In this document: positions 1-14,745 of the stretch, in pieces
Numbering within the stretch: position 1 is the first letter of the stretch
Layout: each line of letters opens with the position of its first letter
DNA from: Sulfurovum sp.
GTDB lineage: Bacteria > Campylobacterota > Campylobacteria > Campylobacterales > Sulfurovaceae
DNA length: 14,745 nucleotides
Assembly: GCA_026193735.1 (NCBI GenBank)
Contig: JAPHUJ010000203.1
Coordinates: 1-14,745, forward strand
Direction of reading: 5' to 3'
Notes under the pieces: model-generated
Databases searched by the model: none
What the model was told of the DNA's origin: nothing
What the model saw: only the letters and a program-made list of their open reading frames with translations
Position numbers and translations under genes: made by a program

Positions 1-221
1 CCTGTAATAGGTACTTCTACAAGTACACCCTTCTCCACCATCAAAATAATATTTTTATAGACAGTTGCAAGAGAAAGTGATGGATGTGTCTTGACTACTT
101 TTGCATAGATAGTATCTATAGACATATGTCCATGACTTTCTATACTTTCCAATATATTCATACGTTGAAATGTTGCTTTAAGCCCATTTTCTTTAAGAAG
201 TGTTACATAATCCGTCGCCAT
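1..221 (-). CDS. perR: Fur/PerR-family transcriptional regulator, N-terminal part (runs off the window)
   Basis: The minus-strand frame opens at the ATG at 219-221, stays open to the window edge and gives 73 residues. It starts MATDYVTLLKENGLKATFQR and contains the recognition-helix motif LSLATVYKNI, the hallmark of the Fur-family winged helix. A GAAAGGA ribosome site lies 6 nt upstream. Fur-family proteins are metal-dependent DNA-binding repressors, and the PerR branch senses peroxide through metal-catalysed histidine oxidation. The metal-binding C-terminal half is outside the window, so PerR rather than Fur or Zur is inferred from the adjacent upstream peroxiredoxin gene and from general resemblance to Campylobacter PerR. 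A perfect inverted repeat over its own promoter suggests autoregulation. Family assignment is strong, subfamily moderate. Confidence 0.85.
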   Translation of the reverse strand, partial: MATDYVTLLKENGLKATFQRMNILESIESHGHMSIDTIYAKVVKTHPSLSLATVYKNIILMVEKGVLVEVPIT

Positions 222-233
222 ATTTATCCTTTC

Positions 234-275
234 AATATATACATAAAATCATCATTATAAATTTATGTATATATT
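234..275 (-). promoter_or_regulatory. perR promoter with operator-like inverted repeat
   Basis: A perfect -10 hexamer TATAAT lies on the minus strand at 254-259, about 33 nt before the perR ATG. No convincing -35 is seen, which is common in Campylobacterota. A perfect 14-bp inverted repeat frames it: AATATATACATAAA at 234-247 and its reverse complement at 262-275, separated by 14 nt. With a start site near 247, one arm would be upstream and untranscribed and the other around +1, so a DNA operator is more likely than an RNA hairpin. An operator for PerR itself is inference. Confidence 0.5.
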
Positions 276-296
276 CCCACGAAAACCGTGGGAATA
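272..296 (-). terminator. Hairpin downstream of the peroxiredoxin gene, probable terminator
   Basis: A 10-bp perfect stem (272-281 with 287-296, core ATTCCCACG/CGTGGGAAT) with a 5-nt loop starts about 13 nt after the peroxiredoxin stop codon. It is the most GC-rich element of this intergenic region. In the minus-strand transcript only a mixed A/U stretch follows it, not a clean U run, so termination may be partial or the hairpin may be a 3' stabiliser. The outer 4 nt overlap one arm of the perR inverted repeat. Confidence 0.5.
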
Positions 297-309
297 AAAA
301 CTCTGAAGC

Positions 310-906
310 TTATAGTTCTTCAGCGTGTTTAGCAAGATAATCAGCAACACCTTCAGTGTCTGCTTTCATACCTTCGTCACCTTTTACCCAACCAGCAGGA
401 CACACTTCACCATGCTCGTTAGTAAATAACATAGTATCTACCATTCTGATCATCTCATCAATGTTTCTACCTAATGGAAGGTCATTGATCACTGCATGTC
501 TTACTGTACCATCAGCATCAATAAGGAATGACCCTCTAAGTGCTACAGCTTCGTCAAGAAGAACATCATAATCTCTAGCGATTTGTTTATTCAGGTCAGC
601 AACCAGTGGAAAATCAACTCTACCGATACCACCTTCGGCTACAGGAGTTTCTCTCCATGCAAAGTGTGAGAATTGGCTATCTACAGATACACCAATGATA
701 TTTACACCTCTTTCTCTAAACTCTGCTGCTCTGTGTGAAAATGCAATAATTTCTGATGGACATACAAATGTAAAGTCAAGTGGATAGAAAAAAAGTACCG
801 CACCTTTTTCACCAAGGTTTTCCATAAGATTAAAACCATCTACAATTTGACCATTCGCAAGTACAGCTGTTGCTGTGAAATCTGGAGCTTTTTTAGTTAC
901 TAACAT
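310..906 (-). CDS. Typical 2-Cys peroxiredoxin (AhpC/Prx1 type)
   Basis: This is a cytoplasmic thiol peroxidase that reduces hydrogen peroxide, organic peroxides and peroxynitrite. At 198 aa it has the full usual length. The peroxidatic site is PLDFTFVC (P42, T46, C49). The resolving cysteine is C169 in HGEVCPAGW, and the conserved active-site arginine is R124 in RGSF. The loop GGIG (92-95) resembles the GG(L/I)G motif of overoxidation-sensitive enzymes, but the C-terminal YF partner is YL here (190-191). ATG at 906 is supported by TTTAAGGAAAT just upstream. The nearest neighbour downstream is a PerR-like regulator, which fits oxidative-stress control. Whether its reductant is AhpF, thioredoxin or another protein cannot be told from this window. 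Confidence 0.96.
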   Translation of the reverse strand: MLVTKKAPDFTATAVLANGQIVDGFNLMENLGEKGAVLFFYPLDFTFVCPSEIIAFSHRAAEFRERGVNIIGVSVDSQFSHFAWRETPVAEGGIGRVDFPLVADLNKQIARDYDVLLDEAVALRGSFLIDADGTVRHAVINDLPLGRNIDEMIRMVDTMLFTNEHGEVCPAGWVKGDEGMKADTEGVADYLAKHAEEL

Positions 907-915
907 GTTATTTCC

Positions 916-969
916 TTAAAGATAATTTTTATTAACAACAAAATTTTATCATATTATCTTTAAAGAGAA
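916..969 (-). promoter_or_regulatory. Peroxiredoxin promoter with operator-like palindromes
   Basis: On the minus strand an extended -10, TGATAAAAT, lies at 943-951. An 11-bp perfect inverted repeat flanks it: TTAAAGATAAT at 916-926 and ATTATCTTTAA at 953-963 on the plus strand. The outer arm is also the core of a 16-bp palindrome with one mismatched pair (954-969, centre CTTTAAAG), which would overlay the -35 area. The inner arm lies in the leader just before the Shine-Dalgarno. These are plausible PerR/Fur-type sites, although they do not match the Bacillus PerR box exactly. Confidence 0.45.
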
Positions 970-975
970 GTTAAA

Positions 976-2796
976 TTAAAAAGGCAGCAATCCAAACTTT
1001 TTAATAAATGCCTCATCTATATCGATAAGCCCTTTTTCCTGAAGCATATCAAGTACCTCTTTTGTACAGAAAGTGTCACCAGGCCATTCCCTTTCATAGC
1101 CGTCCACTTCACTCTTATTAGTCGCATCTATGGCTATAAATGGTGCAAGTGTGACATCCCGACTTGCATCAATATTGTTTACTATACGCCAGATAAGCAT
1201 ATAGGCATCTTTCAAATCGTTATTTATATTATCTACAATAATGAGTAATTTGATATGTTTTTTTAAGACTTTAAGTTTTTTAATAAGCTTAAGTTGAGAC
1301 TTTTTCTTGTCAACAGCAATGACACAGACGGGTGTTTTAGTCTTTTTCATGTATTGCTTAAGTCCAACTACCCTAGCACTAATCTCCTGCATCTTCTCAA
1401 GTAGATCTTTGTCTGAAAGTAATTCTTCTACACCATTCTCTACTTCATCCCCTGTTGCATCCACGCCCAGTTTCCCACCGACAAACTGTTCTGATGAAGA
1501 GTGGTCAAGGTGATCAACAATACCTTGTGTGATGAGTACTTTATTCTTATCGAGTCTATTAAGTATATGCTTGGCTAACGCTTCACTCTCTTCAAGCTCA
1601 GGTGCATCTTCTCCTACGAAAAGTGCATGTTTTACAAAGCTCATCTGTCCTACACCCCAAAATGCATGCATAAACTGCTGTGCATGTCCAGGATAGAGTG
1701 TTTTCATCTTAGCCAGAATAAGGTTATGAAACACCCCATTTTCAGGCATGTTGTAGTCTATAAGGTCTGGTGCCATAGGCTTAAGCATCGGTAAAAAAAT
1801 ACGTTCTGTGGCCCAACCCATATACTTGTCTTCCAATGGTGGTTTCCCTACCACAGTAGCTTGAAATACAGGATTCTTTTTCATCGTGATCGTCTCTACA
1901 TCCATCACAGGAAAAGGCTCTTTAAGTGTGTAGTATCCCGTATGATCACCAAATGGCCCTTCTATCTCCATGAGTTCAGGGTCAACAAAACCTTCTATGA
2001 CCACATCTACATCACGTGGGATATAAATGTCATTGGTGATGGATTTTACCAGTTGTGCATTTTTGTTACGTACAAAACCATAAAGCAACATCTCAAACAT
2101 CCCATGAGGCATCGGAGCCTGTCCACACCAAATATAAAGAGGGTCACCACCGATAGCAACTGTTACAGGCATTTTTTTTCCTGCCCTTTGGTACTGGTCA
2201 AAAAAGTGAGAAGCATCTTTATGTATCTGCCAGTGCATACCCAGTCTATTTTTATCATACTGCTGAAGTCTGTACATTCCAAGATTTTGCATCTCTCCAT
2301 CAAGACTCTGTGTATAGACCTGTCCCATCGTGATAAAAGGACCACCATCTTCTTCCCAGGTTTTGAGTATAGGCAACATGTCAAGATCCACCTCTTCTTT
2401 AGGAATGATAACTTCTTGACACTCCCCTTTAAAATTTAAACGTTTTGGAAAAACATTTTTAAGTGAGAAAAGTTTTGGGATCATTGCCAACTTAGCTTTA
2501 AGCCCTTTGGGTGGTTTTAGTTTAAGAAGTTCTCCTATCCCCTCTGCGACTTCATCAGGATGTTTACCAAAGATCTTTTCAGTCAGTTCTTTGTTTGCAA
2601 AGATATTCATAAGTACCGGCATATCATATTCTATGCCTTTGGCCTTATTAATAGGCTTGGTAAAAAGGATAGGACGAGAATCATCTGTTTTGACTTCTAT
2701 ATACGCTACATGGGGAATCTCAAGCTCCACATCAAGTGCATCATCTATGATCTTTAAATTGCCATTTTCCTTAAGCCATTCTACGACATTTTGCAT
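976..2796 (-). CDS. ubiD: UbiD-family prenylated-FMN decarboxylase, probable menaquinone-pathway enzyme
   Basis: UbiD enzymes remove a carboxyl group from aromatic or alpha,beta-unsaturated acids using prenylated FMN made by UbiX. The 606-aa protein carries the family's conserved stretches: NLGMYRLQ (N171, R176) at the cofactor site, QAPMPHG (226-232) and the catalytic EGPFGDHTGYY (279-289). It is longer than E. coli UbiD (497 aa); the C-terminal extension from about 490 is Lys/Leu-rich and then mixed. Campylobacterota make menaquinone by the futalosine pathway, where a UbiD homologue (MqnL) decarboxylates 1,4-dihydroxy-6-naphthoate, so that role is more likely than ubiquinone synthesis; this is family knowledge, not visible here. 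ATG at 2796 has GAGGA 8 nt upstream. The gene precedes the peroxiredoxin gene, which has its own promoter. Confidence 0.93.
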   Translation of the reverse strand: MQNVVEWLKENGNLKIIDDALDVELEIPHVAYIEVKTDDSRPILFTKPINKAKGIEYDMPVLMNIFANKELTEKIFGKHPDEVAEGIGELLKLKPPKGLKAKLAMIPKLFSLKNVFPKRLNFKGECQEVIIPKEEVDLDMLPILKTWEEDGGPFITMGQVYTQSLDGEMQNLGMYRLQQYDKNRLGMHWQIHKDASHFFDQYQRAGKKMPVTVAIGGDPLYIWCGQAPMPHGMFEMLLYGFVRNKNAQLVKSITNDIYIPRDVDVVIEGFVDPELMEIEGPFGDHTGYYTLKEPFPVMDVETITMKKNPVFQATVVGKPPLEDKYMGWATERIFLPMLKPMAPDLIDYNMPENGVFHNLILAKMKTLYPGHAQQFMHAFWGVGQMSFVKHALFVGEDAPELEESEALAKHILNRLDKNKVLITQGIVDHLDHSSSEQFVGGKLGVDATGDEVENGVEELLSDKDLLEKMQEISARVVGLKQYMKKTKTPVCVIAVDKKKSQLKLIKKLKVLKKHIKLLIIVDNINNDLKDAYMLIWRIVNNIDASRDVTLAPFIAIDATNKSEVDGYEREWPGDTFCTKEVLDMLQEKGLIDIDEAFIKKFGLLPF

Positions 2797-2821
2797 TTAT
2801 TATCCTCAATTTTTCTAAAAT

Positions 2822-2827
2822 ATTATA
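2822..2827 (-). promoter_or_regulatory. ubiD promoter -10 box
   Basis: The minus-strand sequence TAGATATAAT holds a perfect TATAAT at 2822-2827, about 25 nt before the ubiD ATG, giving a short leader that contains the GAGGA ribosome site. No clear -35 is seen. It faces away from the plus-strand promoter at about 2860 in the same divergent intergenic region (2797-2894). Confidence 0.5.
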
Positions 2828-2859
2828 TCTATAAAGTAATTTACACTAGATGATTATGG

Positions 2860-2883
2860 TATGATAATAAAAAGTATGTAAGG
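2860..2883 (+). promoter_or_regulatory. Promoter -10 and ribosome site of the first AsmA-like gene
   Basis: TATGATA at 2860-2866, in the context TATGGTATGATA, is a plausible -10. AAGG at 2880-2883 is the ribosome site, 11 nt before the ATG at 2895. The second paralogous gene has the near-identical arrangement TATGCTATGATA and AAGG, 12 nt before its ATG. The similarity suggests the two control regions share ancestry. Confidence 0.45.
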
Positions 2884-2894
2884 ACATTTTGCCT

Positions 2895-5564
2895 ATGTCA
2901 GCTATTATAAAATATTTTATTTTTATTATAATATTTATCTCACTTATACTTTTTTCACTTGTTTACACGCCTTTTGGTAATAAACTGATATATAGCGCCG
3001 TTGGTTACACACTTAGTAAAAAAACTGACTTAAAGGTTGAAGTTCAATCTATAAACGTACACCAGTATCCTTATCTTGTAGTAGATATGGTTGTTGAACA
3101 AAAATATAACCTTGAACTTAAAGGTACCTTTTATAACAATCATATTGACATGGATTACAGACTTACAAGCAACTGTCTTCAAAATGATATCTGTACTATC
3201 GATGATGAGATTGTTGTTCTGGGACACATAAATGGTCCATTGGGAGATATCCACGTCACTGGAGAAGGAAAAGCACTTGAAGGTAATGTCAGCTATGTTT
3301 TGATGAAACATGATGATACGTTTAAAGATGTGAACTTTATGCTGAATGATGTAAATTCAAGCAAACTTTTTACACTTCTTGGTCAAACCGCTATTTTTAA
3401 AGGTAAGGCCAATGCCCACATACTTTTTGACCACATAGGGGAAAACAGTAAAACAGGTAAGATACTTTATGATGTCAAAGACAAAGATTTTTCTGGTTTA
3501 CACATCGATCTACATGCCCAAATAGATATACATGATGCAAACCAGACATTTATCATCGATGTCACTGCACCAGAGTTAACAGTGCATCTTACTAAAGGAC
3601 AATATGATGAAGAGAGGAAATATGCACATGCATTTTATGCTCTGAACATCAAAGACTTAAGTCATTTAGAGCATATTTTAGGTCACAAATTCATAGGTCC
3701 GTTTTATGCCTTTGGCGAGATAGAATATGACAAACATATCATAATCAAAGGGCTTTCTAAAAGCTTTGACGGGTTGCTTGACTTTCTGTATGAAAAAGAC
3801 GTATTACAAGTCAATTTAAAGGATATTCCTTTCAGAAATATCACGCAACAACTCGCTTATAAAGCTCCTCTTGATGCCAACATAACAGGACAGATCGAAT
3901 ATCATTTTATTGACAAGCGTATCACAGCTAAGACAAAACTCAAAAATGCAAGGTTCCTACCTACAGAACTTCTCGATACACTTTCCCAGAAATCCGGTAT
4001 TAATATATCACAGGAAGTTTTTGATGACAGTAGTTTGGACCTCACCTATAAAGACGATATTTTATCTGGTGATATAAAGTTTGCAAATACAAAAAATCAT
4101 TTGTTGTTACGCGATACAACAGTAAATCCTGCAAAAAAATCTATTAATAGCTATATTGATCTACAAATACAAAAACATAAAATTGCAGGGAAAACATATA
4201 TTGCAATGCTTGATGATGCTACCCCTATGCAAAACGCACTGCAAGATACATACATTAGATTTGATGGAAAAGTTGACACCCATTACAACCTTAAACTTAA
4301 TGGTCTGGTCAATGACTCTTGGATTAATATGGACTATGCACTTAACGCTGCCCGTTTTCCAAGTCATATCTGTATCATAGAAGATAATGTCGATTTTATG
4401 GGACATATCAATGGTCCTTTTTCTCATTTGCATATTAGTGGACAAGGAAAAGCACTTGATGGTAATGTAAGCTATGAGGGCATTAAAATTAATGATACAT
4501 TGGAAAACTTCACCTTTACAATGAATAATATCCATGCATTAAAACTTTCCACGCTTCTTGGTAAACCTTCCTTTCCTAAAGGGAGAGCCGATATGCAAGC
4601 AAATTTTAAGTATCTAAGTAAAGATAACAAGAAAGGTACGTTTACGTACATACTTAAAAAAGGTACATTTTCTAAACTTCCTTTTACTTTACATACACAG
4701 ATAAATGTGGATAATGCGAAGAAAACCTTTACTGCGGAGATGACCCTGGCAAATGCCAAGATCAATATCACAAAAGGTTCACATGATTCAGACAAAAATA
4801 TCACAAGTGCTTTTTATGTCATCGATGTGAAAGATCTGTCAAAGTTTGAAGCACTTTTTGGCTTCAAATACCAAGGACCATTCTACGCGATGGGAGAAGC
4901 AACCCATAACAAACATCTAAAGATACAAGGACTTTCTAAAACATTTGGAGGCATGCTTGATTTTGTTTATGAAAAAGACAAATTGCACATAGAGCTGGAT
5001 GCTGTCTCATTTAAACAGTTTATGATGTTGTTTCCCTACCCTCTGATGTTAGATGCCAAAACCACAGGTTACATCAATTATGACTTTATAAAAAAGAGTA
5101 TGATCGTTAAGACCAAACTGAACAAGGCAAAGTTTTTACATACAGATCTGGTCAGTAATATTTATAAAAAAGCTAACGTAAATATGCTTGTAGAAGAATT
5201 TGATGATAGTAGTTTAGAGGCGAGTTACCAGAATGGTATTTTACTTGGAGACTTAAAACTTACCAATGAAACAAGCTCTTTTTCTCTCACACATACAGAA
5301 CTGAATTCTGAAAAAAACACTATTAATGCATACTTTGCCCTTAAAATGCAAAACCAGGAATTTTCAGGGAAAGTGTATGGCTCACTCGATGATCCAGAAA
5401 TAAACTTGGACATGCAAAAACTCATCCAACACAAAATGGATCAACAGTTAGACTCAATGATGGGAAAAGAAAACCGTGAAATGATGGAAAGTATGCCTAT
5501 GGGTGGTACAGCAAAAGATGTTGCAACAGGTACAGCTGCAGGTTTTATGAAAATATTTTTTTAA
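2895..5564 (+). CDS. Large membrane-anchored AsmA/TamB-like protein with two internal modules, function unknown
   Basis: I do not recognise a named family. The 889-aa protein begins with a hydrophobic anchor (residues about 5-25) and the phrase YTPFGNKLIY, typical of AsmA-like envelope proteins. The rest is a beta-strand-rich extracytoplasmic region. Two modules of about 375 residues repeat: 71-444 and 464-836. Shared landmarks are GHINGP, G(K/E)GKAL(D/E)GNVSY, GPFYA(F/M)GE, GLSK and DDSSL. The C-terminal phrase FSGKVYGSLDDPEINLD is like the AsmA/TamB C-terminal signature. C94 and C100 in module 1 could form a disulfide; module 2 keeps only C493. A TTG at 2889 is an alternative start, but ATG 2895 aligns exactly with the paralogue's start. 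A Gly/Met-rich tail ends in FF. AsmA-like proteins act in envelope biogenesis or lipid transport; a similar role here is inference. Confidence 0.8.
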   Translation: MSAIIKYFIFIIIFISLILFSLVYTPFGNKLIYSAVGYTLSKKTDLKVEVQSINVHQYPYLVVDMVVEQKYNLELKGTFYNNHIDMDYRLTSNCLQNDICTIDDEIVVLGHINGPLGDIHVTGEGKALEGNVSYVLMKHDDTFKDVNFMLNDVNSSKLFTLLGQTAIFKGKANAHILFDHIGENSKTGKILYDVKDKDFSGLHIDLHAQIDIHDANQTFIIDVTAPELTVHLTKGQYDEERKYAHAFYALNIKDLSHLEHILGHKFIGPFYAFGEIEYDKHIIIKGLSKSFDGLLDFLYEKDVLQVNLKDIPFRNITQQLAYKAPLDANITGQIEYHFIDKRITAKTKLKNARFLPTELLDTLSQKSGINISQEVFDDSSLDLTYKDDILSGDIKFANTKNHLLLRDTTVNPAKKSINSYIDLQIQKHKIAGKTYIAMLDDATPMQNALQDTYIRFDGKVDTHYNLKLNGLVNDSWINMDYALNAARFPSHICIIEDNVDFMGHINGPFSHLHISGQGKALDGNVSYEGIKINDTLENFTFTMNNIHALKLSTLLGKPSFPKGRADMQANFKYLSKDNKKGTFTYILKKGTFSKLPFTLHTQINVDNAKKTFTAEMTLANAKINITKGSHDSDKNITSAFYVIDVKDLSKFEALFGFKYQGPFYAMGEATHNKHLKIQGLSKTFGGMLDFVYEKDKLHIELDAVSFKQFMMLFPYPLMLDAKTTGYINYDFIKKSMIVKTKLNKAKFLHTDLVSNIYKKANVNMLVEEFDDSSLEASYQNGILLGDLKLTNETSSFSLTHTELNSEKNTINAYFALKMQNQEFSGKVYGSLDDPEINLDMQKLIQHKMDQQLDSMMGKENREMMESMPMGGTAKDVATGTAAGFMKIFF
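3105..4226 (+). repeat. Module 1 of the internal protein duplication
   Basis: Codons 71-444 of the 889-aa gene encode the first of two related modules. The second lies about 393 codons downstream with almost constant offset (Y71/Y464, D440/D832). DNA similarity is still visible, for example GGACA(C/T)AT(A/C)AATGGTCC and GGAAAAGCACTTGA in both copies, so the duplication is not ancient beyond DNA recognition. Confidence 0.85.
4284..5402 (+). repeat. Module 2 of the internal protein duplication
   Basis: Codons 464-836 repeat module 1. The first cysteine of the module-1 pair (C94) is replaced by arginine (R487). A linker of about 20 residues joins the modules. Module 2 runs into the AsmA-like C-terminal phrase, which is degenerate in module 1 (AGKTYIAMLDDATP). 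Confidence 0.85.
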
Positions 5565-5602
5565 ACCATTTAGCATTTGATTCATATTCATTAACAATAT
5601 GC

Positions 5603-5629
5603 TATGATACAAAAGAAAAATACATAAGG
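5603..5629 (+). promoter_or_regulatory. Promoter -10 and ribosome site of the second AsmA-like gene
   Basis: TATGATA at 5603-5609 and AAGG at 5626-5629 precede the ATG at 5642, in the 77-nt gap after the first gene. The arrangement mirrors that before the first gene. No convincing terminator separates the two genes, so read-through plus an internal promoter is possible. Confidence 0.4.
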
Positions 5630-5641
5630 TCCTCTCTAAGT

Positions 5642-7132
5642 ATGTCTACTTTTTTAAAATCACTTGTTTATCTTATAGTTTTTATTTCTATCGGACTTTT
5701 TTACCTCTTCTATACCTCTCTAGGCAATAAACATCTTTATGATCTTGTAAGTTATACACTTAGTCAAAAATCAGATTTGCATATCGACGTTAAATCAATA
5801 GATCTAGATCAATATCCCCATGTTGTCATTGAAATGAATATAGAAAAAAAAGCCAAACTTATACTTAATGGCCTTATAACCACCAATTCTATCGATATGG
5901 ATTACATACTTACAAGTAAGTGCATTGCAAGTGATGTATGTGAAATTAATGATGACATCGATATAGATGGGCATATCAATGGACCATATTCTCGTATGCA
6001 GGTGCAAGGAAAAGGCAAAGCGTTAGATGGCCATGTCAACTACAATGCTCTAAAGTTTACAGAAAAAGTAAAAGATCTAAACCTCACTATGAATGATATC
6101 AATTCAACCAAACTTTTTACCCTGATGGGTTACGATGCACTCATCAAAGGGAAAGCCGATGTAGATGTCAATTTTAAATTAATGGAAAAAGACAACATAC
6201 AAGGTTCATTTAGCTATGACGTAAAAGACAATAACTTTTCCGGATTACCTTTAAATCTACATACTAAAGTAAATTTAGAAGGTATGAAACATACCTTTCT
6301 TGCAGATATCACTTCACCTTACTTAAAACTCAATATTTCAAACGGACAGTATGACCAAGATACAAAACTTGCAAAAGCATTTTATATCCTTGATATAAAA
6401 GACTTATCAAAGCTAGCAACCCTTTTAGGGAATAAATACTTAGGTCCATTTTATGCCATGGGAGAAATGACATATGACAAGTTTTTAAGTATCAGTGGTC
6501 TTTCCAAATCCTATGGTGGGATGTTGGATTATCTTTTTGAAAAAGATGGCTTGCATATAAAATTAGAAGCTGTTTCTTTCATGGATTTCATGAAAATATT
6601 CCCTTATCCACCAATGCTTGATGCAGATGCCACAGGTGACATATATTACAATTTTATACAAGAAACCCTGGTAGTGAACACAAAACTCAACAATGCAAAA
6701 GTGATACATACTGACCTTGTAAATGTTATCCGTCAAAAATCCGGTGTCAACTTGTTACAGGAAACCTTTAATAACAGTAATTTAGATGCCACGTATCATA
6801 AAGGAATACTCTTAGGAGACTTAAAACTTGCGAACAATGAGAATCACCTCTTTTTAACAAGTACAAAAATGGATACTAATAATCATACCATCAATGCATA
6901 TTTTGACTTTAAAGTACAGGAGCAGGAATTCTCAGGAAAAGTGTATGGATCACTGGGGGATCCTGATGTCAATCTCGATTTACAAAAACTGATAAAGTAT
7001 CAAATGGAAAAACAGTTAGATGCGATTATGGGGAAAGGAACCACTAAAGCTATGAGAAGCATACCCATGGAGGGTACAGCAGAAGATATGGCAACAGGAG
7101 CCGCATCAACTTTTATGGGAATGTTCTTTTAA
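5642..7132 (+). CDS. Membrane-anchored AsmA/TamB-like protein, single-module paralogue, function unknown
   Basis: The 496-aa protein aligns from its first residue with the preceding gene product: MSTFLKSLVYLIVFISIGLF as membrane anchor, then YTSLGNKHLY, and a single module at about 71-440. It has the same landmarks (GHINGP, GKGKALDG, GPFYAMGE, GLSKSYGGMLD) and the C-terminal phrase FSGKVYGSLGDPDVNLD. C94 and C100 are at the same positions as in module 1 of its neighbour. Its N-terminal half looks closer to module 1 and its C-terminal half closer to module 2, suggesting origin through recombination. The Gly/Met-rich tail ends in GMFF. It is transcribed convergently with hemC, with only 27 nt between their ends. 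An envelope role is inferred; no enzyme motif is seen. Confidence 0.8.
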   Translation: MSTFLKSLVYLIVFISIGLFYLFYTSLGNKHLYDLVSYTLSQKSDLHIDVKSIDLDQYPHVVIEMNIEKKAKLILNGLITTNSIDMDYILTSKCIASDVCEINDDIDIDGHINGPYSRMQVQGKGKALDGHVNYNALKFTEKVKDLNLTMNDINSTKLFTLMGYDALIKGKADVDVNFKLMEKDNIQGSFSYDVKDNNFSGLPLNLHTKVNLEGMKHTFLADITSPYLKLNISNGQYDQDTKLAKAFYILDIKDLSKLATLLGNKYLGPFYAMGEMTYDKFLSISGLSKSYGGMLDYLFEKDGLHIKLEAVSFMDFMKIFPYPPMLDADATGDIYYNFIQETLVVNTKLNNAKVIHTDLVNVIRQKSGVNLLQETFNNSNLDATYHKGILLGDLKLANNENHLFLTSTKMDTNNHTINAYFDFKVQEQEFSGKVYGSLGDPDVNLDLQKLIKYQMEKQLDAIMGKGTTKAMRSIPMEGTAEDMATGAASTFMGMFF

Positions 7133-7159
7133 GAGAAAAGTCGTCGCTTTCAGATTAAA

Positions 7160-8113
7160 CTATAATCTCTCCGGCATTTCATCTTTAAATGCTATCTCTT
7201 CTGCTTTAGAGAGTATGTCTAATGCACCATCCACTATCATTGCTTCAGCTAATTGCTGACCTAATGTATCACATTCACTTACTTTTGATGTCAGTTCTTT
7301 GTGCATGATATTCGTACCGTCAGGGTACCCCAGCATCGCTTTTACAGTAATATAATCACCTGTAATAACTGCATTCACTGCTACAGGTGCAGAACATCCC
7401 GCTCCTATCTTAGAAACAAAGTCACGTTCTAACTTTGTACAGATAAAAGAGTTTTCATCATTTAAAGTCATAGCTATTTCGCGAATTCTATCATTAGCAC
7501 TCACAATCTCAATACCCAAAGCAGCTTGTCCCATAGGCGGTATGAAAAAATCCAATTTTTCAACAAAAGGAATGTCCTTAAGCAAGTCAAGTCTATTAAG
7601 TCCAATATAAGCAAGTATAATAGCGTCATACTGGCCTTCTTTGAGCTTTCTAAGCCTTGTGTTAACATTACCCCTAAGCTCTTTTACTTTCAAGTCTGGA
7701 CGCTTTTCAAGAAGTTGCATACGTCTTCTAAGACTTGTTGTTCCGACAACTGCACCTTGGGGAAGTTCATCTAGACTCTTATACGTATGGGAAAGAAGTA
7801 CATCACTCTGGTCTTGACGAGTAGTAATAGCACACAGTTCTAAGCCTTCAGGAATGTAGGTAGGGACATCTTTGAGTGAATGCACTGCAAGATCAGCATT
7901 ACCTTCAAGCATTTCATCTTCAAGCTCTTTGGTGAAATGTCCTTTTCCCCCTATCAGTGCAAGCGGTTTATCCAATATCTTGTCACCTTTAGAGGTAATT
8001 TCATTAAGCTCTACTATTATCTCAGGAAACGATGTCTCGATTCTCTCTTTTATGTGATATGCCTGCCAGAGAGCTAGGTTACTTGCTCTTGTTGCGATGA
8101 TTAATTTTTCCAC
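7160..8113 (-). CDS. hemC: Porphobilinogen deaminase (hydroxymethylbilane synthase)
   Basis: This cytoplasmic enzyme joins four porphobilinogens into hydroxymethylbilane in tetrapyrrole synthesis. The 317-aa protein has the family motifs in order: IATRASNLALWQA (6-18), HSLKDVPT with catalytic D82, TSLRRRMQL, ELRGNVNTRLRKL, PPMGQAALGIE and GAGCSAPVA, where C240 carries the dipyrromethane cofactor. The start is GTG at 8113 with AAGG 7 nt upstream; no in-frame ATG fits better. It is the last gene of the operon and follows the Dsb-like gene by 110 nt. HemA, the first committed step of the same pathway, is encoded upstream in the same gene run. The protein ends close to the convergent AsmA-like gene. 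Confidence 0.97.
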   Translation of the reverse strand: MEKLIIATRASNLALWQAYHIKERIETSFPEIIVELNEITSKGDKILDKPLALIGGKGHFTKELEDEMLEGNADLAVHSLKDVPTYIPEGLELCAITTRQDQSDVLLSHTYKSLDELPQGAVVGTTSLRRRMQLLEKRPDLKVKELRGNVNTRLRKLKEGQYDAIILAYIGLNRLDLLKDIPFVEKLDFFIPPMGQAALGIEIVSANDRIREIAMTLNDENSFICTKLERDFVSKIGAGCSAPVAVNAVITGDYITVKAMLGYPDGTNIMHKELTSKVSECDTLGQQLAEAMIVDGALDILSKAEEIAFKDEMPERL

Positions 8114-8223
8114 TACTTTACCTTATATGAACGTATATAGAGCAAAGCCCTATACAATAGGACTAAAACGCTGAGTTTAGACCGCCCAAACGATTTGTCG
8201 TTACGTACATTTTGATTTATTTG
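8114..8223 (-). other. 110-nt gap between the Dsb-like gene and hemC with small inverted repeats
   Basis: This is the longest gap in the operon. It holds AACGA-caaa-TCGTT (5-bp stem, near 8189-8202), and TATAGAGC-aaa-GCCCTATA (one mismatch) near the hemC side. Neither is followed by a U run on the minus strand, and no clear -10 box is seen. It could be a processing site, a weak attenuator or a hemC leader. No tRNA or known riboswitch was recognised. Confidence 0.3.
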
Positions 8224-9057
8224 TTATTTGATGAGTTTTTTGTATCCGTCACGCATTTTATCCCATTCACCATCAATGTAGATAGTAGGTGTGCCTGAAA
8301 CCATCATTTTACCTGCAGCTATCTCATCTGCCTGCATTGCTTCTTTGACTTCTTTTGTATCTACTTGAGCTGCAGTGATGCTATAACCTGTATGCGTTTT
8401 TACTGCAGAAAGTATCTTTGTCATATCTGTCTCTCTTGGATTGATCTTAAGTGAATATATCTTTTCAACCACATCTGCCTTACCTTCATGTTGGGCAACA
8501 TACATCACACGTGTCAGTGTATCTGAAACTGGATGTATACGAAGCAATGGCAAGTGATAATAATAAACCGCTATTTTTGTAGGATTTTCTCTTGATGCTT
8601 TAAAAATTGACGGTACTACCTCTTGACAAAATGGACACTGAGGATCAGAGAAGATAAGTACTTTATGCTCTGCATCTTTATTACCAAAAAGTAAATGCGC
8701 ATCATTATAATAACTTTGAGGTACCGAAGGTTTGATATTGTCACGGTAATCATTACCTGTTGACAAATCTACAAGATGCCCTGTGACAAGTCCATCTTTC
8801 ACAAACATCATCTCTGGCGCATGGATCTCTTTTTTCTGATATTCTAAATCCATAGTTGTTAACAGAATAGTCCATCCAGGTAACTTTTCATCTGTTTTAG
8901 ACTCAATAACTGTCACACCTTTTACTTTTACTTCCGGGTTTTTCACCACGGCTTTTTTAACATATTTAAGTAAATCTTTATTGTCTGCCTGTGCATTTGC
9001 ACTAAGAGCTACGGTCGCTGTGACTGTGCTCATCAATAATTTCGACATCAATGACAT
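8224..9057 (-). CDS. Periplasmic thioredoxin-fold protein, DsbC/DsbG-like
   Basis: The 277-aa protein probably handles disulfide exchange or isomerisation in the periplasm. A signal peptide runs to about residue 24 (VALSANAQA, cleavage after A24). An N-terminal region of about 95 residues is followed by a thioredoxin-fold domain with the active site DPQCPFCQ (C141, C144, the only cysteines) and the cis-proline loop GTPT (P257). Start choice: ATG 9063 directly abuts the Shine-Dalgarno AAGGAG, while ATG 9057 has 6-nt spacing, so 9057 is preferred. The start overlaps the end of fxsA by 56 nt, implying coupled expression. Two-domain architecture points to DsbC/DsbG rather than a simple DsbA; the N-terminal domain is not similar enough to E. 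coli DsbC for certainty. Confidence 0.85.
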   Translation of the reverse strand: MSLMSKLLMSTVTATVALSANAQADNKDLLKYVKKAVVKNPEVKVKGVTVIESKTDEKLPGWTILLTTMDLEYQKKEIHAPEMMFVKDGLVTGHLVDLSTGNDYRDNIKPSVPQSYYNDAHLLFGNKDAEHKVLIFSDPQCPFCQEVVPSIFKASRENPTKIAVYYYHLPLLRIHPVSDTLTRVMYVAQHEGKADVVEKIYSLKINPRETDMTKILSAVKTHTGYSITAAQVDTKEVKEAMQADEIAAGKMMVSGTPTIYIDGEWDKMRDGYKKLIK

Positions 9058-9424
9058 TATCATCTCCTTGTTTTGTAAAATGTGTTGTTCGTTCGGGTGT
9101 TATTTTAGCGATAAATTGTAAATAAACAGTGTAAAAAAGTGCTATTATTCCTAAAAAATCAGAAAATACTCCAGGGATAATGAGAAGTATCGCACCGACA
9201 AAATAGGACATGCTGGCATTTTGAAATCTTTGCATGTCAAGTTTTCCCTGTCTCATAGACTGCATATTACCCATCATAGTTTGTGAAGACTTTTGTAAAA
9301 GTATCATACCTAACATAAAGCTAAGCACTATCCATACCACTGACCAAAAGAATCCTATAGTCTCTCCGGTCTTTAAGGAAAGGTACAGTTCTATAAGAAA
9401 AAAAGGTACAAGCAGAAATATCAT
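9002..9424 (-). CDS. fxsA: FxsA-family small membrane protein
   Basis: FxsA proteins are small inner-membrane proteins; E. coli FxsA, when overproduced, relieves exclusion of phage T7 by the F plasmid, but the normal role is unclear. The 140-aa product has hydrophobic segments at about 1-16, 24-43 and 73-101, and the family phrase IIPGVFSDFLG (82-92). The C-terminal tail is polar and acidic. ATG 9424 is chosen over an in-frame ATG at 9451 because it gives the usual FxsA start (MIFLLVPFFLIELYLS), has GGAAAG 8 nt upstream, and lies one base after the proS stop. A homologue sits next to proS in C. jejuni as I recall (Cj0544). The 3' end overlaps the Dsb-like gene. Confidence 0.85.
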   Translation of the reverse strand: MIFLLVPFFLIELYLSLKTGETIGFFWSVVWIVLSFMLGMILLQKSSQTMMGNMQSMRQGKLDMQRFQNASMSYFVGAILLIIPGVFSDFLGIIALFYTVYLQFIAKITPERTTHFTKQGDDNVIDVEIIDEHSHSDRSS

Positions 9425-9425
9425 A

Positions 9426-10946
9426 TTAAAATCTTTCCGATAGAAAATCAACTATCTCATCTACAGACACTTCTTCTTTTTCCATGCCGTTTCTACTAAT
9501 AAACTCTACTACACCATCAGCTAGATTTTTACCTATAACCACTGCATGAGGTACTCCTAGAAGTTCATAATCTTTCATCTTCGCACCAAATCTGTCTTTT
9601 CTCTCATCGAGTAGGACATCTACTCCTTTATCCAACATCACTTCATAAAGTTTTTCGCCCAAAGCTACCTGGCCATCATCTTTAATATTAGAGATAATGA
9701 TCTGCAGATCAAACGGTGCAGACTCTTTTGTCCAGATACAGCCTTTATCATCATGATTTTGTTCGATAATGGCAGCAAGTAAACGACTTACACCGATACC
9801 ATATGTTCCCATCACCATAGGCTGTGCTTTTCCGTTTTCATCTAAAAAGTTTGCACCTAATGGTTCAGAATACTGTGTTCCCAGTTGAAAGATATGTCCG
9901 GCTTCTATACCCTTGGTATAACGTAATGCTCCACCACAAGTAGCACAAGAGTCTCCTTCCTGAACTGCTGATATATCGGCATACGATTTCTCTTCGGCAA
10001 TGAGACTGTCTACACCTTCCAATAGACTGTCTGCAACCAGTGTTATTATAGTATCCGTATCTTCGTGTTCTACAAGTTCATTTGCATTGACTGCATTACA
10101 TGCTTTTACTTCTTGCAGTTCAACTGATGAGGGTAAGGCAAAATGTACTACTTTTGTTACACCTTCATCATACAATGCTTTCATCGTAACAACTTTTACT
10201 TGTGTAGAGACATCATAGGTTTTAGGCTTTGCGACAGCAGCTTCAATGTTTGCACCATACTCACAATCAGGACATACCACTATCGTATCTTCTCCACTGT
10301 CTGCAAGTACCATAAACTCTTTACTTCCAGACCCACCGATAGCACCTGAATCCGCATCTACCACTCTGAATTCAAGTCCAAGGCGTGTGAATATTTTCTT
10401 ATATGTCTCTTCCATAAGTGCAAATTCTCTTTGCATATCTTCAGTTGATGTATGAAAACTATAAGCATCTTTCATCAAAAACTCTCGTCCACGCATCAGA
10501 CCAAATCTTGGTCTGATCTCATCACGAAATTTTAAGTTTATCTGATAAACATTCAAAGGGAGTTGTTTATAACTCTTTACCGTTTGTCGTACAAGGTTAA
10601 CCATCATCTCTTCATGCGTTGGTCCCAATATAAAGTCATTGTTTTTTCGGTCTTTAAAACGCAATAACTCTTTACCATACTTCTCTAAGCGACCACTCTC
10701 TTCCCAAAGTGATGCCGGTGTGACAAAAGAAAGACTCACCTCTTGACATCCTGCTTTATCTAACTCATCTTTAACGACTGCATGAACTTTATCCAATATT
10801 TTTTTACCTAAAGGTAAAAAATTGTAGAGTCCGCTTCCTCCGACTGACTGTATAAATCCACCTCTTATTAAGAAGATATGACTTGCCAATGTTGCATCAT
10901 TAGGTGTCTCTTTAGTTGTAGGGATCAATAATCTTGAAAATCTCAC
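9426..10946 (-). CDS. proS: Prolyl-tRNA synthetase, bacterial type with shortened editing insertion
   Basis: This class II synthetase charges tRNA-Pro. Motif 1 region is around 40-84 (GLYNFLPLG to WEESGR), motif 2 at 139-163 ([20 protein letters not shown]), and motif 3 at 380-395 ([16 protein letters not shown]). The anticodon-binding domain fills about 410-506. Bacterial ProRS usually has about 565-575 aa, with an INS editing domain of about 180 residues between motifs 2 and 3. Here the protein has 506 aa and the corresponding stretch (about 232-328) is only about 100 residues; the conserved GP/GAN-type part of INS is not recognisable. The CPDC (225-228) and CATCGG (334-339) flanks and [11 protein letters not shown] remain. 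The start is GTG 10946, overlapping the hemA stop as GTGA, with AAAGGA upstream. Confidence 0.95.
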
Positions 10947-12250
10947 GCGTTGTATCCTTTTGTATGGTGGTCTGCTTTATACTGCTTGAAGTCGATATTT
11001 TCAGTGTCTATATTAAACATCTTTCTTACTGCTTCTATACAGTTTGCATTCTTCTTTTCAGTAGAAGAATGTCTCAGGTTTTGCGTTGGCTTATGTAAAA
11101 AACGTTTAAACATTTGCTCTGCCATTTTACGCATATTGGCTTCAGCTTCTTCTGGTACAAAACCTTTTTTTATCGCCCTTTTCATCTCGGTATCTATGGC
11201 TTCAGAAACATGTTCTCTCATCTGTTTAATAACAGGTTCTATGGAAAGTGCTCTAAGCCATGCATAAAATTCTTCTTTGTACTTTTCTACTATCTCGGCT
11301 GCTCTTACAGCCTGTTCTTCGCGTAACGCATGATTATTTTGAGAGATCGCACGAAGATCATCTATACGAAAAAGTTGTAATTTATCTAGATCCATATCTT
11401 CTATATCACGAGGAATAGCCATATCAAACCAAAGTCTTGGTAATGTCTCATTTTCGATGAGTCCTTTTGTAATGATAGGCTCTCTGGCTGCAGTGGCTGA
11501 GAAAAGCAATCGGTAACGGTTCAGATATTTTGGAAGCTTATCCATCGTAGCAGCTTTTACATTTTCCCCTAAAGTATGGGCTATAAGTGCCACCTTCTCT
11601 TGATCTCTTCCTAGCATAACTACATCACAACCTGCTCTAAGCAAATGTTTTGCTGCGAGTACACCCATTTCACCTGCTCCTACAACAACCGCTGTCATAC
11701 CAGCCATGTTGTCACCCAAAAGTTTATGTGCCTGAGCCACGGCTACGGAAGCTATTGAAATAGGATTTTGAGAAATATTTGTGGCATTACGTACTTCTGC
11801 TGCACACTTCACTGCATAAGAGATGATACGATTAAGTTTACGTCCGGCAGTACCGTTTCTATGAGAAAGCATAAACGCTTCTTTAACCTGTCCCGTGATT
11901 TGAGATTCACCTATGACCAAAGAGTCTAAAGAAGAAACAACAGAGAAAATATGCTGTACTGCTTCTTCATCATCATAACGTTCCCCCACCGTTTTAATCT
12001 CATAAAAATTCAATGCACTTTTCTGACTCATAAGCCCTAAAATCGTATGATAACTTGAAAAGTTATCACGTGTAGCCAAAACTATTTCAACACGGTTACA
12101 GGTAGATACGATAAACGCTTCATGAATAAATTCAAATTCAACAAGTTGATTAAGCATTGCTATTTTTTCTTCATCATTAGCAAATGCCAACTTCTCTCTC
12201 ATGCCCTGATCACAATTTTTATGGGAAAAGCTCATCACCTGATAATACAT
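10943..12250 (-). CDS. hemA: Glutamyl-tRNA reductase
   Basis: HemA reduces glutamyl-tRNA-Glu to glutamate-1-semialdehyde with NADPH, the first committed step of five-carbon tetrapyrrole synthesis. The 435-aa protein contains STCNRVEI with catalytic C51, [13 protein letters not shown] of the catalytic domain, the NADPH-binding GAGEMG, and a helical C-terminal dimerisation region (about 300-410). The ATG at 12250 shares one base with the stop of the polyprenyl synthase gene (TAATG), and its stop overlaps the GTG of proS, so the three genes are probably translationally coupled. Length is close to the family norm. No tetrapyrrole-responsive element was identified. Confidence 0.97.
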
Positions 12251-13146
12251 TAAAAATCCCTTTCTATCATCTGCATAGCAATACTGGAGAGTGCATGTTC
12301 ACCTCTCTCATTCATCAAAGCTATTGCTTCTTCTATAAGTACTTTAGCTTCCAAATAACTTTTTTGTATGACTTGATATTTTTGCATTATTGTTTTAATC
12401 CAAAGTTGTTCTTGCTCAGTAAGTTTCTTTGCATGTAATGATCTTAATTTTTCTTTTTCATCGTTACCCAATACTTCGTACAGATAAATATATGGCAGTG
12501 TGGTTTTCCCTTCTTCAAAATCATGCAAAGAGGGTTTACCCAATGTCTCCGCGTCAGCCGTGATATCAAGTATGTCGTCTATCATTTGAAATGCCAACCC
12601 CAGGTTTCTACCGTATATCATATATGCTTCTTTAGGTTTACCTGCTAACAATGCTGCAGCCCCGGCACTCGCCTCCATAAGAGAGGCCGTTTTTTGGTAT
12701 ATCATTTCAAGATATAGCTCTTTATCTAAGTTAAATGTTTTTGAGAGTGAAACATCTTTAAGTTCTCCAAGGCTGAGTTGCACAACAGCATTTGAAATCA
12801 CTTTAGCCACATCTGCACTAATATTATTTAACTCTAAAAAACCTTTTGAGTAAAGGATATCGCCAAGCATAATGGCAGTTTTATTACCATAGAGTGCATT
12901 AAGAGAAGGTTTTGAACGTCTGGTATATGCATCGTCTATGACATCATCATGCAAAAGACTTGCAGCATGTATCATCTCGACAATAGCAGCCGTTTTGACT
13001 ACAGAGAGACTACTGCCTGCTATTTTCAGGATGAGTTTTGCACGCAGTCTTTTGCCATGAGGAAGCTGCGTATAAAGTCTACTTACTTCCTTATCATTCA
13101 AATCAGCAATAAATTGTTCTATTTTTCTCTCAACTGCACTCAACAT
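12250..13146 (-). CDS. ispB: Long-chain polyprenyl diphosphate synthase
   Basis: This trans-prenyltransferase extends allylic diphosphates with isopentenyl diphosphate, here most likely making the menaquinone side chain. The 298-aa protein carries GKRLR (31-35), the first Asp-rich motif DDVID (67-71), the second Asp-rich motif DDILD (190-194), and QKTA with its conserved lysine (151-154). Residues before the first motif (A62, S63) are small, as in long-chain enzymes, rather than the bulky residues of short-chain farnesyl or geranylgeranyl synthases. It is slightly shorter than E. coli IspB (323 aa). The ATG at 13146 has AGGAA about 11 nt upstream. It is the second gene of the operon. The exact chain length cannot be read from sequence. 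Confidence 0.92.
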   Translation of the reverse strand: MLSAVERKIEQFIADLNDKEVSRLYTQLPHGKRLRAKLILKIAGSSLSVVKTAAIVEMIHAASLLHDDVIDDAYTRRSKPSLNALYGNKTAIMLGDILYSKGFLELNNISADVAKVISNAVVQLSLGELKDVSLSKTFNLDKELYLEMIYQKTASLMEASAGAAALLAGKPKEAYMIYGRNLGLAFQMIDDILDITADAETLGKPSLHDFEEGKTTLPYIYLYEVLGNDEKEKLRSLHAKKLTEQEQLWIKTIMQKYQVIQKSYLEAKVLIEEAIALMNERGEHALSSIAMQMIERDF

Positions 13147-13159
13147 AAACTATCTATTC

Positions 13160-13465
13160 CTATTCACACTGAGTAACGATTCGACCAACAAGGTCTATAA
13201 ATACAGAACCTGTTCTACCGTCTATATCTTCATCTATCACAGTACGTGAGATTTCCTGTCTGATTGCATCTTCACCAATACCTTGCTCTTCGAGCATTCT
13301 CTCTACAACAGCTAATCTCCTAAAAACAGCTTCAAGTTCTTGTTCTACTATGTTTTGATTTGCAGTTTTTGCTATCTCAAAATAACTTGATTGAGGTGTT
13401 CTACCCCAAAAGTCATCTTTATAATCACCGTAATCATCATCATCTTCGTCGATATAATTGCTCAT
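13160..13465 (-). CDS. DUF2018-family small protein (HP0242-like)
   Basis: The 101-aa protein has a very acidic N-terminus (YIDEDDDDYGDYKDD) followed by a helical region. From DDFWGRTP onward it matches my memory of H. pylori HP0242 (DUF2018), especially the ELEAVFRRLAVVERML stretch against ELERLLELLALLE, and it holds the same place beside the polyprenyl synthase. HP0242 is a small all-helical homodimer with an entwined fold; its cellular role is unknown. The ATG at 13465 has AGGAAG 5 nt upstream. It is the first gene of the operon, 13 nt before the polyprenyl synthase. The acidic extension is not present in HP0242 as I recall it. Confidence 0.7.
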   Translation of the reverse strand: MSNYIDEDDDDYGDYKDDFWGRTPQSSYFEIAKTANQNIVEQELEAVFRRLAVVERMLEEQGIGEDAIRQEISRTVIDEDIDGRTGSVFIDLVGRIVTQCE

Positions 13466-13515
13466 ATTGCTTCCTAAATAATTTTTTGTTTTCTATATTT
13501 GCATAAAAGTCAATT

Positions 13516-13521
13516 ATTATA
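13516..13521 (-). promoter_or_regulatory. Candidate promoter -10 for the DUF2018-hemA-proS operon
   Basis: A perfect TATAAT on the minus strand (context TTAGATATAAT) lies about 50 nt before the DUF2018 start in the 83-nt intergenic region. It resembles the ubiD -10 context (TAGATATAAT). The -35 is weak at best. It is the only convincing promoter upstream of the seven-gene run. Confidence 0.45.
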
Positions 13522-13548
13522 TCTAAATAATTTTAAGAGTGAAAGTGC

Positions 13549-14745
13549 TTAGTCTTTTTTATCTAAATACGATTCAATAGGTCCGGGTTCACCCAAATAA
13601 AACCCTTGAGAATATTGGATATCTAATTCTTTTACCATTTCATAGATATCTTCATGTGAAACAAATTCTGCTATAAGTTCATACTGAAAAGTTTCAGCCA
13701 ATTCCTTAATGGATTTAAGAACCGTTTTGGCACGCTCCGGAGTAGTCTGTAGTTCACGAATGATACTTCCATCAATTTTCAAAATATCTATATCTAATTG
13801 TATGAGATAACTATAACTTGCATACCCGCTGCCAAAGTCATCAAGCGCCACTTTTGAACCAAAGGCTTTTAACTGCTGCAAATAAAACATTACTTTTCCA
13901 TAGTCTTTTATTTCATGTTCTTCAAGAATTTCAAAAGTCAATCTATTTGCTGTAGTTCTGTTTTCATATAAATTATGTGTTATAAGTTTCATCATATCAC
14001 CATTATCGAGATCATCCAAGTCCAGATTAACACTTATTTCCACATCTTTATATGTCTGTAATGTAATAAATACATCACGTAAGACCAACTTACTCATTTT
14101 AATATATTGGCTTGTACCTTTTATCACATTCATAAAATAAAAAGGTGCAATGAGTTTCTTCGGATCATCTTTATCGATGAGTCTGACCAAGGCTTCATAT
14201 TTGACAATTTGTTTTGTTTTTGTCTCATAAATAGGCTGATAAAGACATATTAATCGTTCTTCATCCAGTGCTTCTCTAATGTAATCAATATTAGTATACT
14301 GTACTTCACTGAGTTGCGTAATACCCAAAATGCCTAAACCGTTTTTTCCGTTACTTTTTACTTCTAAAAGTTTTTCATCCAACAATCTTTCTATATTTTG
14401 TATATACATAGTCTCTTCCGGTATACTGATCGCACTCATTGAGACAGTTACATGCTGTACTTCATTTCCTATAAGATATTTTTTCTCTTTTAGCACTTCA
14501 AATACTTTTTGTGCCTGTTCTTCTACATTGCCTACTTCTTTAGGTGTGACAACCAAAAATTCAGTCCCGCCTATACGTACAACGATTGCAGAAGAAGGCA
14601 AAGTAGCCAAGAGTACCTCTGAAAACTGTTTAAGGATAATATCACCATATTCATAACCAAATTTTTGATTTATCTCTTTAAATTCATCTATATCGATCAG
14701 CATTGCATGATAATTATCTATTTTTCTATTGTTGAAAAATTCTTC
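13549..14745 (-). CDS. GGDEF-EAL protein, C-terminal part (runs off the window); probable c-di-GMP phosphodiesterase
   Basis: The open frame continues to the window edge beyond the internal ATG at 14703 (residues EEFFNNRKIDNYHAM precede it), so the true start is outside. The GGDEF domain keeps the IDIDEFKEIN phrase, but its signature is GGTEF (VRIGGTEF) and the RxxD inhibitory site is absent, so cyclase activity is unlikely. The EAL domain keeps YEALVRL, VNLDLDD, FEILEE, LDDFGSGYAS, KIDGS, AEF and QGFYLGEPG, that is, most metal- and substrate-binding residues. The second acidic residue of the usual AEGVE is serine (AEFVS). Such proteins hydrolyse c-di-GMP to pGpG; phosphodiesterase activity is inferred. 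It is separated from DUF2018 by 83 nt and is probably a separate transcription unit. Confidence 0.93.
   Translation of the reverse strand, partial: EEFFNNRKIDNYHAMLIDIDEFKEINQKFGYEYGDIILKQFSEVLLATLPSSAIVVRIGGTEFLVVTPKEVGNVEEQAQKVFEVLKEKKYLIGNEVQHVTVSMSAISIPEETMYIQNIERLLDEKLLEVKSNGKNGLGILGITQLSEVQYTNIDYIREALDEERLICLYQPIYETKTKQIVKYEALVRLIDKDDPKKLIAPFYFMNVIKGTSQYIKMSKLVLRDVFITLQTYKDVEISVNLDLDDLDNGDMMKLITHNLYENRTTANRLTFEILEEHEIKDYGKVMFYLQQLKAFGSKVALDDFGSGYASYSYLIQLDIDILKIDGSIIRELQTTPERAKTVLKSIKELAETFQYELIAEFVSHEDIYEMVKELDIQYSQGFYLGEPGPIESYLDKKD

Follow-up and report, generated by a model that had tools for sequence, protein, structure and literature searches.

Proteins of the AsmA-like clan, represented in Escherichia coli by TamB, YhdP, YdbH and AsmA, carry one N-terminal transmembrane helix of ca. 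22 amino acids (aa), according to a description of the clan (PMC8593681). Closer relatives of the genes described here are found among little-named proteins of the Campylobacterota: in a 2006 list, WS0172 (675 aa, similar to HP0358) has all of its significant hits in epsilonproteobacteria (PMC1557499), and a table entry in PMC8942036 gives HP0358 as a putative outer membrane protein. Here we describe a tandem pair of paralogous genes, A and B, on a 14,745-nucleotide contig of Sulfurovum sp. (assembly GCA_026193735.1, contig JAPHUJ010000203.1, positions 1 to 14,745 of the forward strand), the whole of which we call the window and which belongs to a genome assembly of 1.70 Mb and 78% completeness (G000). 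By profile, the pair very likely falls in the same family as WS0172/HP0358, with which it has in common an anchor helix, a T..GN phrase and units of ~175 aa; it differs in being a diverged branch in Sulfurovum-type genomes whose long form is internally doubled. The family as a whole is probably a distant member of the AsmA-like clan.

A tandem pair of paralogues built from repeated, predicted beta-rich units

Genes A and B are adjacent, intact plus-strand open reading frames encoding paralogous proteins (Table 1). A sequence-only reading of the window had placed at this position a tandem plus-strand pair with identical layout, and the open reading frames, the shared motifs and a gap-free double alignment all bear this out. 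B can be laid over A in two gap-free alignments, at A3-442/B1-440 (46% identity, E = 4e-140) and at A452-891/B57-496 (51% identity, E = 2e-159; both in 891-aa numbering for A), a correspondence that at the sequence level is far beyond chance. As 889 = 496 + 393, A amounts to B plus one extra block. The YTxxGNKxxY phrase reads YTPFGNKLIY in A and YTSLGNKHLY in B, and GKVYGSLxDPxxNLD is present in both. A ends at 5564 and could start at a TTG (2889) or an ATG (2895), of which the ATG is preferred because relatives are 889 aa long. GC content is 34.2% in A and 33.7% in B versus 36.9-39.1% in seven neighbour genes, with third-position GC (30%) inside the neighbour range of 20-34%.

AlphaFold2 predicts one layout for both proteins, namely an anchor helix, an amphipathic helix, a repeated beta region (26 strands in B, 50 in A) with a hydrophobic face, and C-terminal helices. 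The predicted strands are amphipathic, one face being greasy and the other polar; the composition of the greasy face is flattering in that this face was picked per strand from the same data, and a shuffle test served as the control. The repeated beta structure claimed by the sequence-only reading is thus also predicted by the model; a groove shape is putative. That reading had also assigned two modules to one protein and a single module to the other: the two blocks of A and one block of B stand, but each such module turned out to comprise two ~175-aa units.

This inner repeat was examined by cutting units out and comparing their profiles. Among eight sequences of the family's 500-aa class, which include two of pair type, unit 1 matched unit 2 with 98.2% probability (169 columns, E = 3.6e-14), versus 0.4% for the reversed control. 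Within the window's own subfamily the same comparison reached only 26.5% (reversed, 0.7%), so that the inner repeat of this subfamily is visible mainly via relatives. Across the phylum, family members fall into size classes of ~500, 680 and 850 aa, and the 500-aa-class profile matches the longer classes in pieces shifted by ~170-180 residues. As judged from these profile comparisons, the number of ~175-aa units per member ranges from two to four, with two in B and four in A, and the units are old and drifted.

The origin of the long form was addressed with a tree of single blocks, comprising 36 first blocks and 36 second blocks (all 36 A-type proteins picked could be split in two), 30 B sequences (29 matches plus the window's own) and 5 outside members. 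First blocks formed one clade (1.0), second blocks formed one clade (1.0), and the two were joined together (0.986), while the B sequences lay on the outgroup side without forming a clade of their own. A therefore appears to have a single origin, in which a B-like protein was doubled internally; the very distant outgroup (18-19% identity) leaves the root uncertain. Derivation of B from the second block of A, its closest counterpart at 51% identity, was considered and rejected, since the tree joins the two blocks of A and leaves B on the outgroup side.

Both lengths are conserved among relatives. Protein searches returned 151 matches with B and 121 with A, and among the 120 listed for each, lengths were mostly ~496 aa (B search) or ~889 aa (A search); organism labels among the listed matches were Sulfurovum, Campylobacterota or Epsilonproteobacteria, with the sole exception of P0173 (Pseudomonadota). 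One match, P0166, carries an improbable protein name (Smg). In alignments built from chosen matches (63 B rows and 70 A rows), full-length relatives span ~480-515 and 880-902 aa at 39-90% identity, and many glycines are invariant in both sets. A terminal phenylalanine, encoded in the window at 5559-5561 (A) and 7127-7129 (B), is present in 62/63 B rows and 70/70 A rows. Of 33 further family members, some of them cut by contig ends, 22 end likewise, whereas the YhdP, TamB and DUF748 sets mostly end in other residues.

A family found across the Campylobacterota

A family profile built from eight members of the 500-aa class, including two pair-type sequences, matched 45/61 and 165/200 Campylobacterota genomes, and the single B sequence used as a query reached 277/397 genomes. 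The link between the pair and the wider family holds when the pair itself is left out: the B-subfamily profile (63 rows) matched a profile of six 500-aa members, A and B excluded, at 100% (E = 4e-39, 461 columns). Within the family, A and B form a diverged branch with ~13-21% identity to 33 other aligned members; T25, G28 and N29 of the T..GN phrase are invariant across eight aligned family members.

A protein search with the family profile gave 37 proteins, including ones from Helicobacter pylori (~511 aa), H. cetorum and Arcobacter, labelled hypothetical, uncharacterized or blank except for one "outer membrane protein" (P0236, H. pylori). From its presumed gene order and the wording of the published table, we take the H. 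pylori member to be HP0358. Genome G167, presumably Wolinella succinogenes, carries at ~175 kb a family member of 675 aa, a length equal to that of WS0172. Judging from these sequence matches, the family very likely includes WS0172/HP0358.

The sequence-only reading had recognised no named family and considered the pair a candidate for an undescribed system. The first part stands, as Pfam and NCBIfam look-ups gave nothing useful for A or B and linked them strongly to none of the characterised families; the second needs correction, as the family is phylum-wide and a relative was listed in 2006. A PDB-sequence look-up with B only gave nothing meaningful. When 40 diverse members were compared with Pfam and NCBIfam, no AsmA-type model was matched, and the matches at E ≤ 0.05 were of single members to unrelated families. 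A literature search covering search listings and abstract beginnings returned no study of the family's function, and no papers under Cj1219c, which we assume to be the Campylobacter jejuni name.

The genome of the window has a further family member on contig C322 (L088, 3-1391), divergent to two genes of clusters c5/c6 that also lie near a family member in L087 and L085. At 5/16 loci (L080, L081, L082, L083 and L090), the family gene is divergent to a gene that we take to be GroEL-like.

Relationship to the AsmA-like clan

A and B have in common with the AsmA-like clan a predicted layout of N-terminal anchor helix and repeated amphipathic beta region: in both models a helix is predicted at residues 2-24, where the sequence is hydrophobic, which fits the N-terminal helix of the clan. 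Unlike the clan, they lack a clan profile match, B is much shorter, and the chorein-like signal is weak. Profile comparisons with the 40-member family profile gave 72% for DUF748 (reversed, 0.4-0.5%) and 87% for YhdP (reversed, 28-32%), versus 0.1% for groEL and one other control. Long alignments came from a looser setting (mact 0.2); the default setting aligned 53 (DUF748), 491 (YhdP) and 150 (TamB) columns with probabilities unchanged, the DUF748 alignment sitting at family columns 29-84. For the chorein-N-like region, the N-terminal profile gave a weak signal of 34% for DUF748, 12% for TamB and 4% for YhdP (reversed, ≤0.6%). A cut C-terminal profile reached 44-69% forward and an N-terminal one 1-50%, with reversed values of up to 38%, and smaller profiles (6 and 63 sequences) were uninformative at 0.2-8% forward. 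Among themselves, DUF748, YhdP and TamB scored 36-63%, with one reversed pair at 48%. Single family genes also touch clan models below cut-off: in G005 and G033, the family gene of the 850-aa class is matched by Pfam AsmA at 25.6-25.8 bits (cut-off 29.8; E ~4e-6 for one genome), and DUF748 matches the N-terminus of the G013 family gene at 19.7 bits (cut-off 50; 1.6e-4).

Several results weigh against an AsmA-like assignment. Neither A, B nor any scanned member matched the Pfam AsmA, TamB, DUF748, YhdP or YdbH-like models, and the numerically highest family-profile score, 91% for TamB, is spoiled by reversed controls of 52-73%. The TamB C-terminal (DUF490) domain had no match in A, in B or in the genome of the window (78% complete), and the YhdP profile had none in A or B, the YhdP match of this genome being a separate gene on contig C274. 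The lack of direct profile matches and the high reversed scores against TamB, together with the fold searches, are what could be expected if the pair belonged to an independent single-layer amphipathic beta-sheet family that converged on an AsmA-like form, as in apolipoprotein B or OspA. The leading solved match was indeed the beta-belt of apolipoprotein B (Foldseek for A, VIA-align for B), but this protein (apolipoprotein B100) is eukaryotic and without a membrane anchor, and the superposition is loose, at 7-10% identity. The other solved structures listed were sheets and barrels of other kinds; no AsmA-clan structure was among the best 50 matches listed per fold search, which is not evidence of absence. 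Convergence nonetheless seems unlikely to us, as DUF748, YhdP and TamB all scored higher forward than reversed, with a clean margin in the case of DUF748, against near-zero values for groEL and the other control, and as three family genes gave the AsmA and DUF748 matches below cut-off. The profile links to DUF748, YhdP and TamB are thus suggestive, and the family is probably a distant member of the AsmA-like clan, although membership is not proven. Overall, the observation made in the sequence-only reading is confirmed and its AsmA/TamB-like interpretation is partly supported, by layout and predicted amphipathic beta repeats but not by a direct clan match.

The company kept by the family with recognised AsmA-type proteins was evaluated in 61 Campylobacterota genomes, in counts that depend on profile sensitivity. 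YhdP matches were found in 58 genomes (56 above cut-off), TamB in 10, DUF748 in 19 (12 above cut-off) and AsmA in 12 (7 above), and YdbH in none of the 61. All 45 family-bearing genomes had a YhdP match. With TamB matches, above-cut-off DUF748 and AsmA matches and any YhdP match taken into account, the family and YhdP were the only AsmA-type proteins found in 28/61 genomes, and YhdP was alone in 11/61; if below-cut-off matches are also counted, 28 becomes 24, and in two of the four genomes so lost the AsmA match touches the family gene itself. The YhdP-like proteins (833-1102 aa in the 18 fetched) are similar in size to the family and co-occur with it, but the YhdP profile does not match A or B. 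The genome of the window has its YhdP match in a separate gene on C274 and no TamB, DUF748, AsmA or YdbH match in the 78% of the genome that is available. In two genomes (G003 and G047) TamB is present but matches to the family and to YhdP are both missing, as though the systems stood in for each other.

An AsmA-like fold may also serve proteins rather than lipids, the greasy sheet acting as a chaperone for outer-membrane proteins or surface lipoproteins in a TamB- or GspN-like manner. GspN is the sole AsmA-like name among the matches of the 40 scanned members, touched by 1/40 at E = 0.013, which is chance level; the top score of the family profile is for TamB, poor reversed controls included; and both P0236 and, in the published table, HP0358 bear outer membrane protein labels. 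Such a label may be explained by the C-terminal phenylalanine, a residue in which outer-membrane beta-barrel proteins also typically end. Against such a role, inspection by eye of the extra genes near the pair showed no recurring partner (no search aimed at TamA was made), and we regard it as rather improbable.

The ubiD-hemC site and presence in the genus

The pair lies between two genes that we take, from their sequences, to be ubiD and hemC (Table 1). Loci of named relatives, mostly Sulfurovum, show variable content: A followed by B at 7/14 loci, A without B at 5/14, a fragment at 1/14 (L047) and B without A at 0/14, with a tandem trio of A, a second A-type gene and B at L034 (2529-9488) and the same order in G400. 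The long and short forms proposed as a two-length set in the sequence-only reading are therefore both present, but the set is not fixed, and that A and B form a working two-length set is a guess. Flanking by ubiD and hemC was seen at 9/14 loci (L034, L037-L041, L043, L044 and L046), ubiD alone at L036 (no hemC within 8 kb) and L045, hemC alone at L042 (its A cut by the contig end), and neither at L035 and L047. The ubiD-hemC site is usual, not universal.

Table 1 Features of the window. Descriptions of A and B refer to the encoded proteins.
Feature	Position	Strand	Basis or remark
Gene A, 889 aa: anchor helix followed by an amphipathic helix, two blocks with four ~175-aa beta units in all, helices at the C terminus	2895..5564	+	
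A anchor helix (residues 2-24) and amphipathic helix (26-44)	2895..3026	+	predicted secondary structure and hydrophobic sequence
A first block, ~residues 60-440	3072..4214	+	
A second block, ~residues 453-834	4251..5396	+	
A C-terminal helical region, residues 840-889, ends FF	5412..5561	+	model mostly low confidence
Gene B, 496 aa: layout of gene A with two ~175-aa beta units (one block)	5642..7132	+	
B anchor helix (2-24) and amphipathic helix (26-44)	5642..5773	+	predicted structure
B beta region, ~residues 60-437, homologous to both A blocks	5819..6952	+	
B C-terminal helices 447-463 and 478-495, ends FF	6980..7129	+	residues 458-496 low confidence
Left neighbour, UbiD-like decarboxylase	976..2796	-	presumed identity
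Right neighbour, hemC, convergent with B	7160..8113	-	presumed identity

Across the genus, 23/78 genomes matched A at E = 1e-20 or better; of these, 19 have an A/B-type match, which in one case is a fragment lying at the end of a contig, and the other 4 match only through the remote paralogue, leaving 59/78 genomes, many of them incomplete, without an A/B-type match. A hemC match was found in 70 genomes, and 30 hemC loci were fetched and examined: A or B lay beside hemC on the opposite strand in 8/30, ubiD came directly after hemC in 8/30 (~5-185 bp between aligned ends), and neither arrangement was seen in the available sequence of 14/30, in some cases owing to contig ends. On a hemC+dsbG tree of 30 genomes (support values not examined), presence of the pair required 5 changes, versus a mean of 9.6 after shuffling, with 1/1000 shuffles as low. 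Loss is likely in one pair-less clade, because it nests inside pair-bearing genomes. Recent acquisition was considered, and the clustered presence on the tree looks more like old presence followed by later losses.

The A/B pair is thus an extra in the genus, with variable copy number. This raises the alternative that A and B are fast-evolving, optional paralogues, a local duplication without special function, whose role is minor or redundant with two other proteins of this very genome, the family member on C322 and the YhdP-like protein on C274, especially as a related clade has hemC adjoining ubiD. The near-constant lengths, the degree of identity, the invariant glycines and the terminal FF of the aligned relatives argue the other way, since by these signs each gene seems to be under selection, and we consider this alternative unlikely.

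A conserved third gene was sought between the cassette and hemC, and the extra genes found there at five loci differ from one another, as judged by eye. These lie on the hemC side at L040 (9573-12527), L171 (417-3629), L044 (9538-11478), L172 (972-5777) and L173; the L040 gene encodes a 984-aa aspartate-rich repeat protein whose lipoprotein-like start is similar to that of L171. The cassette-hemC interval looks like a variable spot. At the contig edge of the window, 13549-14703 encodes what is presumably a GGDEF/EAL signalling protein, its start possibly cut off.

Proposed function

We propose that A and B are paralogous, inner-membrane-anchored periplasmic bridges of AsmA-like type and of two lengths, which carry phospholipids between the membranes, a reading to which we give about an even chance. 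The topology, groove, cargo, direction and division of labour would then be as follows. The N-terminal helix would hold A and B in the inner membrane, and the greasy face of the predicted sheet would form a trough shielding the acyl chains of phospholipids on their way between the inner and outer membrane. If the strands stack at a spacing of ~4.8 Å, A, given its 50 strands, could reach at most ~24 nm and could cross the periplasm, whereas B, with 26 strands and ~12 nm at most, could not cross alone; twist would shorten both. B might instead act as a feeder on the inner-membrane side, as a partner of A, or as a half-bridge with an outer-membrane partner.

At the scale of the phylum, the WS0172/HP0358 family suggests itself as a candidate for the redundant partner of YhdP, because both are widespread and are often the sole AsmA-type proteins found. 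The family could accordingly be the missing second phospholipid bridge of the Campylobacterota, taking the place of TamB/YdbH next to a YhdP-like protein, with the units doubled in Sulfurovum to give a spanning A that works with a half-length B; this extension is tentative and, in our estimation, somewhat doubtful. The phylum concerned holds Helicobacter and Campylobacter, and the long and short pair would serve as a natural experiment in whether the length of a bridge is set by its number of units.
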